Positions 2,258 to 6,718 of a stretch of DNA of 64,000 nucleotides are shown here, one piece after another. The stretch's first letter is position 1; each line of letters opens with the position of its first letter. Made by a program: the position numbers and the translations under genes. The stretch is taken from contig NZ_JBAGBW010000010.1 in NCBI RefSeq assembly GCF_039822205.1, forward strand, positions 1-64,000, given 5' to 3'. The notes under the pieces are model-generated. The model saw only the letters and a program-made list of their open reading frames with translations. It did no database searches and was not told where the DNA came from. Source of the DNA: Thermodesulfobium sp. 4217-1. Its GTDB lineage: Bacteria; Thermodesulfobiota; Thermodesulfobiia; Thermodesulfobiales; Thermodesulfobiaceae.

Positions 2258-3355
2258 TTAATTCTGTTGCTGCAATTCATGTAAGTTTTGGTTGGTTTGC
2301 AATGGATGATTTGTATTGATTATCTGGTTATCATTGGTTATGTAGTGATATTCGTATCTGTTATCACCTTTATAGGTAGTGTTAGTCGTTGGATCATAAT
2401 AATTTGATTCGTTTTTTACGACGACCCTGTCATATTTTTGCCCAATATTATAATACTCTTGGAGTCTTTGCTGCCCACCTTTAAATATCATGTCTGAAAT
2501 TTGATTGTTTGATTGTGTAACGATATTTTCATATTGAGCGTTCATATTATTTTGTGCAGCTACCCATTGAGGGTTCAATCTATAGCTTTGTGCCATATGG
2601 ACTATGATGTCAAAAGTTTCTCTGGTCAATTGTGCAGGAGCTACAAATCCAATAAAAGTTTTTACATCCCACAACTCACCAGTTTGATTTCGGACAAGCT
2701 CTGTTGCGGAATAAACATAACCATATTCGGGCGTACCATCTAAATAACATGAGAAAGTAGCTTCGCCAGAATCAATAGACGTGTATATGCCATACTGTGC
2801 GTATATATTATTCATTGCCTGACTAGCGTTGTTTAAATCATCAGAACTTGTAATCTGAGCGTTAGAACAAAGGTGCGATATTCTATAATATCCCCATTTT
2901 GCAGCAAATGCTCTACCGCTCATATATGGCTCAATAAACAAGTTTACTCCAGGACCAGCATAATACCACATTCCAGCATGATACCCACCTCTTGCTAAAA
3001 GAGCATTTGGAACTGTAAAAATAGGTATGTTTCTGTCACCATAAAAGATAGTAGTCATTTGGTCGGGTGACTGTACAGTAGTGCCCGATCTAATGTCTAT
3101 TTCTGAGATCCTCTTCACACCTCCATCTACATTCCATCCATCCGGAATATCCAGACTAAAGGCTTGCTCTACGGGATCTGTGAAAACTACCCAATTGACA
3201 TAGTTATTACTTTGTTGTTGACCCTCATTTTGTGCAATTTGAATATTTTTTTGGTTTTCGCTTAAGTTGTTTGAAACATTGGTCTTTGCGCCAGCTCCAC
3301 ACCCAGATAGAAAAATAAATAAAACAAAACAAAAAGTTACCCACAAAACCCTCAT
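2258..3355 (-). CDS. predicted lipoprotein of unknown function
   Basis: A 365-residue protein with a typical lipoprotein signal: a hydrophobic stretch ending in the lipobox LSGC, with Cys-19 as the lipidated residue. After a Gln/Asn-rich linker comes a soluble domain opening with DPVEQAFSLDIPDGWNVDGG. That opening is reminiscent of periplasmic domains which begin with an AFxLxxPxGWxxxGG strand pair. The C-terminal third is rich in Tyr, Asn and Gln. It has its own promoter (3409-3437) and a GGAGG ribosome site five bases before the ATG, so it is probably expressed alone or read through into suhB. I do not recognise a function. Confidence 0.6.
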   Translation of the reverse strand: MRVLWVTFCFVLFIFLSGCGAGAKTNVSNNLSENQKNIQIAQNEGQQQSNNYVNWVVFTDPVEQAFSLDIPDGWNVDGGVKRISEIDIRSGTTVQSPDQMTTIFYGDRNIPIFTVPNALLARGGYHAGMWYYAGPGVNLFIEPYMSGRAFAAKWGYYRISHLCSNAQITSSDDLNNASQAMNNIYAQYGIYTSIDSGEATFSCYLDGTPEYGYVYSATELVRNQTGELWDVKTFIGFVAPAQLTRETFDIIVHMAQSYRLNPQWVAAQNNMNAQYENIVTQSNNQISDMIFKGGQQRLQEYYNIGQKYDRVVVKNESNYYDPTTNTTYKGDNRYEYHYITNDNQIINTNHPLQTNQNLHELQQQN

Positions 3356-3766: not shown

Positions 3767-4816
3767 ATGAATTATTTTAACTATATACCCTTTTTAATAG
3801 CCTTTATTGGATTTCAAATTTTGGCTGTAGGTTCTATCAGGTCAAAGAACGTATTGACGTTGATTACTATCTATCTTGTTTTGAGCGCATTAAATTTCCT
3901 GCCAATGGTAGTTTTTTATATTTTAAACATACAAATTAACTTTATATATTTTATATTTTCTCTATTCGCACTTTCAATAATCGTAACCCAATTTATTGAA
4001 AAGACTTCAATAAAGATTATTTTTATATACTTGATATGTCAAATCTTACTTGTCTATCCAGCTTTTTCTTTTTTGTTTTCGCTAATTCTAAAGCATTTCA
4101 CCATTCATCAATCAGATCAGCTACTTTTTACTTTCTTGGTAGCTCTCTACTCGTCAATGTCGAGTCTATCTGTAAGCCAGCTTATAGGACCGCGCATAGG
4201 CAGATTTACAAAAGATGGAAGATCTATGGCGATACCTGGAAATAATATTATCTTTATTTATTTTGGATCATTGATCTTCATACTTTCTACAATAAATTTT
4301 TTTCAAGAAAACAATCCAAACTGGATACAGTTTGCTTTTTCAAATTTCTCATTATCCATCATAGCTAGTTCGTTATCCTCTATCTTTATCGCAAAGAAAA
4401 TAGATCCTTTGATATTAATATCGTCACTTTTTACATTTATGATTTTTACCGTGTCTGGCAGCTTAGTAGAGCCATTCTACTTAGTACTCGCTTTAACATT
4501 CTTAATATCGTTTATAAATATATACATTCAAAATAAAATTGAAGTGAAATTTTTATTTGACGATCCTCTTTTCCTTATAGTACCAGTTATAATAAGTCTA
4601 TCTTCTCTGATAATAGTTTCTAGTATAGTAAATGGCTTTGGAATTTTCTTTATTTTTATCTTATCTTCTGCTTATTTATGGGTATCAAATTTAATTATAA
4701 TAAAACTGATAAATAAATTTTCAATTCTTAGATATTATCCTAACCAGGAAGAAATTGGTTCAGATTTGTATGAAATAGGTTACGAAGCCTATCCAAAATT
4801 ATTTAAGGATTTTTAA
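3767..4816 (+). CDS. degenerate ammonium-transporter (Amt/Rh-fold) homologue lacking the pore histidines
   Basis: A 349-residue polytopic membrane protein with about ten hydrophobic segments. Landmark Amt motifs survive in the right order: GSIRSKNVL (22-30, cf. GGxVRxKN), IGPRIGRFTKDG (140-151), IPGNN (156-160, usual PxHN), KIDPLILISS (211-220), FDDPL (264-268) and a C-terminal tail EEIGSDLYEIGYEAYP that matches the allosteric EExxGxDxxEHGExAYP tail. The two conserved channel histidines are missing. The position in helix 5 upstream of GPR reads LYSSMSS, and the position after DDP reads IVPVIIS. Conduction of ammonium is therefore unlikely; a sensor or scaffold role is inference. No clear ribosome site precedes the ATG. 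The end overlaps the convergent ANTAR regulator gene by 14 bases. Confidence 0.72.
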   Translation: MNYFNYIPFLIAFIGFQILAVGSIRSKNVLTLITIYLVLSALNFLPMVVFYILNIQINFIYFIFSLFALSIIVTQFIEKTSIKIIFIYLICQILLVYPAFSFLFSLILKHFTIHQSDQLLFTFLVALYSSMSSLSVSQLIGPRIGRFTKDGRSMAIPGNNIIFIYFGSLIFILSTINFFQENNPNWIQFAFSNFSLSIIASSLSSIFIAKKIDPLILISSLFTFMIFTVSGSLVEPFYLVLALTFLISFINIYIQNKIEVKFLFDDPLFLIVPVIISLSSLIIVSSIVNGFGIFFIFILSSAYLWVSNLIIIKLINKFSILRYYPNQEEIGSDLYEIGYEAYPKLFKDF

Positions 4817-5432
4817 TTTCCTTGGGGATATTTTTTGATTTCAAAATTATTTCAGATAGTTCTCCAATAGATATTCTATTATTCATAGAGTATTCTTGCA
4901 TTCTTTTATGAACTTCATTCTCACTTAATTTGGTCTGTTCCATTATAAATAGCTTAGCCCTATAAAGAGAATTCTTAGCTTTCAAAGATTCCTCAAGGGA
5001 GCTGTTTATTTCTTTTAATTTTTTTGCCTCATTGTATCTTTCATAAGCAAAGAGAATTGCGCTTTTTAGCTCGCCTATTCTATAGGGCTTCAATAAATAC
5101 GAAAAAGCACCAATTTTTGATGCCCTCTCTATAAAATCCTGATTGTTATAAGCAGTCAAAAAAACAATGGCTCCAAGGTCATCGTTTTTTAACCTCTCAG
5201 CTAATCTAAGGCCATCCAAATGAGGCATCATAATATCGATAATGCTAACATCAGGTTTCAATCTTCTTATTTCAGAGAGAGCCTCAGCGCCGTCTTTTGC
5301 CTCACCAATGACCTTAAATCCTTCTTTATCTAACTCTTCTTTCATGTCCAATCTAATCAAAAACTCGTCGTCAGCAATAAAAACTTTTATTGGATTTTTA
5401 TTTTTGGAAGATTGCCTCATCTCGCTTGCCAC
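4803..5432 (-). CDS. response regulator with ANTAR RNA-binding output domain (AmiR/NasT/EutV type)
   Basis: A 209-residue regulator. The receiver domain (residues 15-130) has the acid pair Asp-21/22, phospho-acceptor Asp-66 in IIDIMMPHLDG, Thr-93 in FLTAY and Lys-115 in LLKPYR. A coiled linker (130-160) leads to an ANTAR domain (about 152-197: LYRAKLFIMEQTKLSENEVHKRMQ). ANTAR proteins bind tandem hairpins in nascent RNA and prevent transcription termination once phosphorylated. The gene lies 38 bases downstream of a HisKA_2 kinase, which is the expected partner. The start is GTG at 5432 behind AGAGGTG. Its RNA targets are not identified here. Confidence 0.88.
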   Translation of the reverse strand: MASEMRQSSKNKNPIKVFIADDEFLIRLDMKEELDKEGFKVIGEAKDGAEALSEIRRLKPDVSIIDIMMPHLDGLRLAERLKNDDLGAIVFLTAYNNQDFIERASKIGAFSYLLKPYRIGELKSAILFAYERYNEAKKLKEINSSLEESLKAKNSLYRAKLFIMEQTKLSENEVHKRMQEYSMNNRISIGELSEIILKSKNIPKEIKNP

Positions 5433-5470: not shown

Positions 5471-6718
5471 TCAAAATTTTTGTAAAATAATCTCAAATAG
5501 TGTACCATTAATAGTCGGCAATCTTTTATAAGAGGCATTCAAACCGTCTACCAGGAGGCTTTTTACAAGGTCGCTGCCATATCCCTTAGAAGATCCTTCA
5601 GTTTTAAAATCTCCAAAATCAAGGTAGGTTATTCTAACAAGGTCAGTTTTATTTATTATTGAAATAAATATCTTTGATCTTTCGTCTGCTACAAAGGCAT
5701 GTTTTATAGAGTTTTGCAGCAATTCTATCAATGCAAGTATTAACAGCAACATTTTTTGATATTCGCCTAAGAGATCTCCATAGATATATAGTCTTTCTTT
5801 TCCAGAACTAACTAAAATCTTAAATAAACTTTCTAATAATTCTCTGAGGGAGAGCTCTTCTGATACATTTATCAGCTGTTCGTGCACCCTTGCAAGACAT
5901 TCAAGCTTTATAGATATATCTTCTATTAATTCCTTATCAGACAATCTTCTTGACTTTATATTGACAATACTTTTGATAATTTGAAGATTATTTTTAATCA
6001 TATGATGAATTTCCTTCATAGTATTTATCTGTTTTTCTTTTTCTATTTCAAGCTGTAAATTTTTCGAAAGGTCTCTTACAATTACTATGAAATATTTCAA
6101 GATATTTTCTTTATACAGTGGGAAGAAAGATAGCTGGGCCATAAAATTTTCATTTTTTAAAGTTTTTGAAAAAATAGTAGGATGCATAAATTTGTTTTTT
6201 GAAAAGAACTCTTTCCATGTATCACCCTTAGAGAATTCAGTAGTGTTTGTAGCCTTGGTATAAATAAGTCTCGCATTAGAGGATGCATAAAGCTCATTTG
6301 AATTTTCATCTAAAATAATAATTCCATCTTCAATTGAGATAGTGCTTGAAAAAAGATCTTTACACGGATTGGCGTTTAGGGAGCCAAGAATTAAAGTGTT
6401 TTTAAAGTCATTAAATTGTTTAAAATTTGGTATGTTTTTAACATTGCACTTAAGCATTATGTATGTATGATGATCTAAATAATAATACTCTTCGAAAAAC
6501 ACGTGCCCTTTCTCTTTGTAGAAAAAGGGCAATTTATAGTCTTTGTTTTGGTTTTTTTTTATAAAATCTAAAAATTTTTTTGATATTGTTGTTTTTTCTT
6601 TATTAGATAATACTGACTCAACACTAAAGTTATTTTTTTCTAAAATATTTACCAAAAAAACATCGGCGTTAAATATATGTGATATAAATTTAAATCGCCA
6701 TTTCTCACCAGAGATCAT
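5471..6718 (-). CDS. soluble HisKA_2-family sensor histidine kinase (PdtaS/EutW type)
   Basis: A 415-residue kinase without obvious membrane segments. Residues about 120-225 look like a PAS domain (EDGIIILDENSNELYASSNA). The dimerisation/phospho-acceptor segment is KEIHHMIKNNLQ (His-238/239), the HisKA_2 variant with Met in place of the usual Arg. The ATPase domain has an N-box (ELLQNSIKH, Asn-336) and a reduced G1/G2 region (LDFGD, KGYGSDLVKSLL). It shares a 4-base ATGA overlap with pyrE upstream and precedes the ANTAR regulator, forming a kinase/antiterminator pair. The N-terminal 110 residues, which may hold the sensor, are not recognisable. Confidence 0.85.
   Translation of the reverse strand: MISGEKWRFKFISHIFNADVFLVNILEKNNFSVESVLSNKEKTTISKKFLDFIKKNQNKDYKLPFFYKEKGHVFFEEYYYLDHHTYIMLKCNVKNIPNFKQFNDFKNTLILGSLNANPCKDLFSSTISIEDGIIILDENSNELYASSNARLIYTKATNTTEFSKGDTWKEFFSKNKFMHPTIFSKTLKNENFMAQLSFFPLYKENILKYFIVIVRDLSKNLQLEIEKEKQINTMKEIHHMIKNNLQIIKSIVNIKSRRLSDKELIEDISIKLECLARVHEQLINVSEELSLRELLESLFKILVSSGKERLYIYGDLLGEYQKMLLLILALIELLQNSIKHAFVADERSKIFISIINKTDLVRITYLDFGDFKTEGSSKGYGSDLVKSLLVDGLNASYKRLPTINGTLFEIILQKF

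Follow-up and report, generated by a model that had tools for sequence, protein, structure and literature searches.

An Amt-family protein of Thermodesulfobium that appears to have lost the ammonium pathway

Introduction

What remains of an ammonium transporter when the residues that handle ammonium have gone, and why would such a protein be kept? The twin-histidine pair, the aspartate D160 (numbered as in Escherichia coli AmtB) and the S1 and S2 sites are regarded as the core of ammonium transport, and D160 is invariant across the Amt superfamily. The question is raised by an open reading frame in a 64,000-nucleotide stretch of DNA from Thermodesulfobium sp. 4217-1 (contig NZ_JBAGBW010000010.1, positions 1 to 64,000; hereafter the window). 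A first-pass annotation, made from the letters of the window, had described its product as an Amt fold that has lost both pore histidines and retained the regulatory tail, and had suggested that it might be a sensor, a docking platform for GlnK/PII or a channel with a changed substrate. Here we examine the ancestry and conservation of this Amt-like protein, the residues that line its pore, its cytoplasmic face and its genomic surroundings.

Results

The gene lies exactly where it had been annotated, at 3767..4816 on the plus strand, with an ATG start and 349 codons specifying 349 amino acids, and all of the motifs named by the first-pass annotation are present: VGSIRSKN (residues 21-28), IGPRIGRF (140-147), IPGNN (156-160), IDPL (212-215), DDPL (265-268) and EEIGSDLYEIGYEAYP (328-343). 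Homology to the Amt family was borne out by the Pfam Ammonium_transp profile PF00909, which matches at 27.8 bits against a curated cut-off of 23.2 (E 1.4e-6). The gathering score is exceeded by all four orthologues in the genus, and for that of genome G001 the match extends end to end, covering profile positions 45-395 with residues 8-338 (39 bits). TIGR00836 also matches the window protein, with an E-value of 2.2e-13, yet far under the model cut-off of 343 bits, and a profile-profile comparison (hhalign) with five canonical Amts gave a probability of 96.8 with residues 63-345 aligned. Sequence searches of the PDB found no Amt, either with the window protein alone, where the top match (E 0.87) is a chance one, or with the four-orthologue profile. 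The gene product is a homologue by descent of the Amt/Mep/Rh superfamily.

The predicted structures are of low confidence. An AlphaFold model built with two near-identical sequences reached a pLDDT of 39, and the addition of five Amts from viral contigs raised it to 49, with a pTM of 0.42. In Foldseek the top 26 PDB matches of the latter model are all Amts, at TM-scores of ~0.5-0.57 and headed by the sensor Amt 6eu6, a result that is partly circular, the alignment behind the model having included Amt sequences. An Amt fold is thus not contradicted by this low-confidence model.

Orthologues were found only in the four sampled species of the genus (97, 78 and 77% identity to the window protein) in protein and profile searches of 386 genomes, a set in which these four are the only representatives of the family and order. 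The other 382 genomes yielded no orthologue and weak matches only: 61 of them have a match, at 22-48 bits, in open frames that are typically longer than 400 residues. The ones that were read are canonical Amts: the first pore histidine is present in every case and the second, as judged by motif pattern, in all but one; low-scoring divergent Amt and Rh proteins of other genomes, judged by eye, have both. A scan of genome_contigs with the orthologue alignment returned just one relative, at 97% identity, and the same scan of viral contigs returned none. Canonical Amt-like proteins are encoded on 28 IMG/VR contigs (L043-L070), with ~42-65% identity to bacterial ones.

Within the genus, the gene has an open frame of identical length in all four species. 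Pairwise dN/dS is 0.08-0.14 over 349 codons for all orthologue pairs, which excludes a chance reading frame, and identity to the G001 orthologue (78%) is comparable with that of the neighbouring housekeeping genes pyrF (76%), pyrE (80%) and the IMPase gene (84%). Strong purifying selection keeps the Amt-like gene in the four sampled species. In a tree, the stem leading to the four proteins measures ~2.75 substitutions per site and the branches among them are short; the two canonical Amts of their own genome, to which identity is 17-19%, fall elsewhere. Read from these branch lengths, the history of the gene is one of a burst of rapid change and later constraint.

For the pore, AmtB from NC_000913, its numbering verified, was aligned with the four orthologues and with canonical Amts. 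When the window protein was aligned by MAFFT with the viral-contig Amts, helix 10 was shifted and a large gap opened past DDP, which neither subsets nor trimming cured, so we relied on the four-orthologue alignment and the HMM alignment instead. All codons given here are on the plus strand. The position of AmtB H168 is taken by A126 (4142..4144) in the MAFFT, HMM and tree alignments alike, and that of H318 by V274 (4586..4588) in ungapped alignments; Ala and Val, respectively, occupy these sites in all four species. The first-pass annotation was thus right that both histidines are lost, and its isoleucine at the second site is replaced by Val274, directly followed by Ile275 and Ile276. The HMM path for the window protein introduces a one-residue gap near H318 that would bring P273 to this position, again not a histidine. 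Canonical Amts in the AmtB alignment, L087 included, all have histidine at both positions.

The loss of the twin-histidine pair can be read without any alignment, because no histidine anywhere in the protein is common to the four orthologues. The window protein has histidines at 110 and 114, as does a second orthologue, a third has them at 118, 185 and 324, and that of G003 has one at 324 only. Misalignment as the source of the lost residues is ruled out on this ground, and the orthologues share the loss of both pore histidines, a point on which a search had been suggested.

Other parts of the pathway have gone as well. Q118 (4118..4120) stands at the position of D160, with Q, Q, H and K across the four orthologues; one insertion in the HMM alignment would let D117 pair with D160, but G003 has no aspartate there. 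T175 (4289..4291) stands at W212, in the S2 site (T, T, I and T across the four), and N182 (4310..4312) at S219, in the S1 ammonium site (N, N, F and Y). The position of W148 is occupied by Ser or Leu, or falls in unaligned sequence, in the orthologues, so that this tryptophan, where the alignment is uncertain, has probably been lost too. What is kept is the Phe gate, with F64 (3956..3958) and F178 (4298..4300) as the invariant equivalents of AmtB F107 and F215, and the D309-D310-P311 motif at the cytoplasmic pore mouth, present as D265-D266-P267 (4559..4567).

Mutants of AmtB give a measure of what such losses may mean. The H168A/H318A protein binds NH4+ and does not transport it, the signal of binding disappears when S219A is added, and the D160A protein cannot sustain growth (PMC7447429). 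Histidine loss is by itself insufficient proof of a closed pore, because different changes at the two histidines may yield unselective, channel-like activity (PMC9040831). As aligned, the residue losses in the Amt-like protein go well past those of the published non-transporting mutants and, since mutants with fewer changes already fail, the analogy makes it very probable that the protein is not an ammonium transporter. The first-pass suggestion of a non-conducting pore is strengthened by the additional losses at D160, W212 and S219. Ks-Amt5, a non-transporting Amt that senses ammonium, retains the twin-histidine pair and the S1 site, and by comparison the Amt-like protein is probably not a sensor of that type. 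Among the three proposals of sensor, PII dock and changed-substrate channel, an ammonium sensor would be the least likely, because the residues known to bind ammonium at S1 are lost and variable. No natural Amt without both histidines was found in the open-access literature, which is not proof that none exists.

The cytoplasmic side of the protein has fared differently from the periplasmic side. Among the three diverged species, 77 of 87 positions are identical in the cytoplasmic loops and tail, 155 of 220 in the membrane segments and 20 of 42 in the periplasmic parts, with segment boundaries drawn by hand from homology; periplasmic loops 4 and 6 are identical at only 4 of 16 and 3 of 8 positions. 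Canonical Amt2 follows the same trend with a smaller contrast (cytoplasmic 59/62 versus periplasmic 46/59), and on this comparison the excess of cytoplasmic over periplasmic conservation in the Amt-like protein is exaggerated and not unique. Cytoplasmic loop 5 (4187..4246, plus strand; GPRIGRFTKDGR-MAIPGNN) is identical at 19 of 20 positions among the three diverged species and resembles GPRIGKFAKDGSxRAIPGHN of the canonical Amts L081 and L082.

The C-terminal tail (4727..4813, plus strand) is identical at 25 of 29 positions in the same species. The first-pass claim that the regulatory tail had been kept holds in part: of the motif GLDxxEHG, here GSDLYEIG, the residues G331, D333, E336 and G338 remain, but the Leu of GLD has become Ser and the His of EHG has become Ile. 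The end of the tail reads GSDLYEIGYEAYP or, in two species, ...EVNP, so that the final A-Y has become V-N in two of the four, and the complete GLDxxEHG...AY motif of PII-regulated Amts is absent from the Amt-like protein. The last residues of the tail also overlap the reading frame of the neighbouring ANTAR gene, which places an extra constraint on them. The protein ends 29 residues past helix 11 and carries no fused kinase domain.

That neighbour encodes a response regulator with a C-terminal ANTAR domain (4803..5432, minus strand; Pfam Response_reg 92 bits, ANTAR 39 bits), the only ANTAR protein per genome that a search of the four genomes turned up. Beyond it lies a HisKA_2-type sensor kinase (5471..6718, minus strand; Pfam HisKA_2 41 bits) with a weak PAS match and no clear transmembrane segment (hydropathy maximum 1.62), which follows pyrF-pyrE. 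The Amt-like and ANTAR genes are convergent, on opposite strands and not co-transcribed, and the 14-base overlap reported earlier, stop to stop at 4803-4816, is equally long in all four species. The adjacency is conserved, but it argues only weakly for a functional link, because gene order on both sides is largely conserved in the genus anyway: the IMPase gene lies to one side, and to the other lie the kinase gene, pyrE, pyrF and genes for molybdopterin. A link to the ANTAR system is attractive because ANTAR regulons mostly concern nitrogen (PMC3369931). A scan for the dual-hairpin ANTAR RNA motif, run without a positive control, found none in the glnK, glnB, glnA or amt-like leaders (under looser settings the glnA leader was covered at L078 only), and an Rfam scan of the nitrogen loci found nothing. 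Two motif matches outside the tested leaders (window position 1713, minus strand, and L076 position 2076, minus strand) were taken as chance.

Two further features of the region may be recorded here. Between the IMPase and Amt-like genes of the window lies a lipoprotein-like reading frame of 365 residues (2258-3355, minus strand) for which neither Pfam nor NCBIfam gives a significant match; it is missing at this place in G001 and G003, where the IMPase and Amt-like genes are ~105 bp apart. The pyrF gene of G002 is split (L023:732-1529), its reading frame having 184 residues versus 237 while the tblastn match runs on to 1529, which is probably a frameshift or an assembly error.

The first-pass annotation had suggested a search for canonical genes, and these are found elsewhere: an intact glnK-amt-amt operon lies on contig C26 of the organism's own genome (L026), and the sequences of G000 and G001 both show the operon (L001, L026 and L071). 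Its Amt1 and Amt2 are tandem paralogues that have both twin-histidine motifs and belong to another Amt branch than the window protein. All four genomes encode the PII proteins GlnK and GlnB, and three of them, G003 being the exception, have a weak third match that is PII-like (24-25 bits; L036, L037 and L038).

Discussion

To judge from its sequence and that of its relatives, the Amt-like protein is a real and conserved member of the Amt family, restricted to the genus among sampled genomes, from which the ammonium pathway has been removed. The protein has probably taken on some other task and may act at the inner side of the membrane as a platform for docking or signalling. The best explanation we can offer, to which we would give an even chance, is that an ancient Amt paralogue lost conduction and was kept for a function of its cytoplasmic face, a role that is our best guess because the cytoplasmic loops and the tail are so well conserved. 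The protein would still fold as an Amt, probably as a trimer, its pore would be hydrophobic and closed, and it would act as a platform in the membrane to which a soluble partner attaches; for the platform role itself the chances seem to us evenly balanced.

PII proteins dock on the cytoplasmic face of canonical Amts (PMC10433425), and it is because they do so on Amt trimers that GlnK or GlnB would be the first candidate partner. By this analogy the pairing is a possible but unlikely one. Against the explanation as a whole, no PII gene is found near the Amt-like gene, the histidine of the tail motif is gone, as is the final A-Y in two species, and the cytoplasmic bias of conservation is shared, to a lesser degree, by canonical Amt2. 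The HisKA_2/ANTAR pair comes second and is a doubtful candidate. That a pseudo-transporter without a pathway should act throughout the genus as a docking platform for either PII or the ANTAR system, in a purely signalling capacity, is a proposal we put forward tentatively.

The alternative that survives best is a channel for some other substrate, perhaps a gas or a small uncharged molecule, with a wholly hydrophobic pore behind the retained Phe gate. The invariance of F64, F178 and DDP and the fixation of the twin-histidine sites as small or aliphatic residues (A126, V274) are what one would hope to see, but the entrance, in the region of AmtB W148 and S219, varies within the genus in a way that is unlike a selective vestibule, and the neighbouring pyrimidine, molybdopterin and IMPase genes suggest no substrate. 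We regard such a channel as unlikely.

The Amt-like protein might instead tune the activity of Amt1 and Amt2, by entering mixed trimers with them or by competing for their PII. There is a precedent in yeast, where inactive Mep1 inhibits Mep2 and Mep3 (PMC10433425), and the same genome encodes both canonical Amts. However, shared trimers are hard to credit given that identity to those Amts is so low and the proteins stand apart in the tree, and the genes are unlinked; this too we consider rather improbable.

Of similarly low probability is a role as the sensory input subunit of the adjacent HisKA_2 kinase and ANTAR regulator, which would make the locus a two-piece counterpart of Ks-Amt5. The convergent overlap kept in four of four species, the single ANTAR protein per genome, the nitrogen bias of ANTAR regulons (PMC3369931), the precedent of Ks-Amt5 (PMC10433425) and the circular placing of 6eu6 as top Foldseek match of the weak model all lean this way. 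Set against them are the opposite strands of the genes, a surrounding gene order that is largely conserved in any case, the twin-histidine pair and S1 site that Ks-Amt5 has and the Amt-like protein has not, and the leaders of glnK, glnB, glnA and the gene itself, where the scan without positive control found no dual hairpin. Finally, an Amt gene in decay, which extreme divergence and a length ~70-100 residues short of canonical Amts might bring to mind, is almost certainly not what we are dealing with and is rejected on a dN/dS of about 0.12, with frames of equal length open in four species and a housekeeping-like level of identity.

The twin-histidine pair is intact in every other family member that we inspected, very divergent ones included, and a family member that is under selection without the residues of the ammonium pathway separates transport from what Amts do at the cytoplasmic face. 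It is a natural test case for whether signalling or PII recruitment at that face is possible in the absence of transport, as has been asked since Ks-Amt5 and the Mep2 transceptors.

The protein shares with AmtB and with the Amts described by PF00909 and TIGR00836 the order of motifs, the Phe gate, DDP, the position of the tail and the hydrophobic membrane segments, and with canonical Amts the GPRxGKxxxDG-IPGHN block of loop 5. It differs from canonical Amts in the loss of the twin-histidine pair and of the equivalents of D160, W212 and S219, in its altered tail motif, in shortened periplasmic loops, and in its length of 349 residues versus about 420. A natural change in the twin-histidine motif is also found in fungal Mep1 and Mep3, but there only the first histidine is changed, to Glu, and transport is kept (PMC9040831). 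The neighbouring regulator with ANTAR output and its HisKA_2-type kinase recall systems of the EutV/EutW type, although the Amt-like gene is neither fused to nor co-directional with the ANTAR pair. A further parallel is Ks-Amt5, likewise a non-transporting Amt, in which a two-component kinase is involved just as one is encoded by an adjoining gene here; Ks-Amt5, however, has the twin-histidine pair, the Phe gate and S1, is able to bind ammonium and forms a fusion with its kinase (PMC10433425), whereas in the Thermodesulfobium protein the ammonium sites are lost and the kinase is a separate protein.
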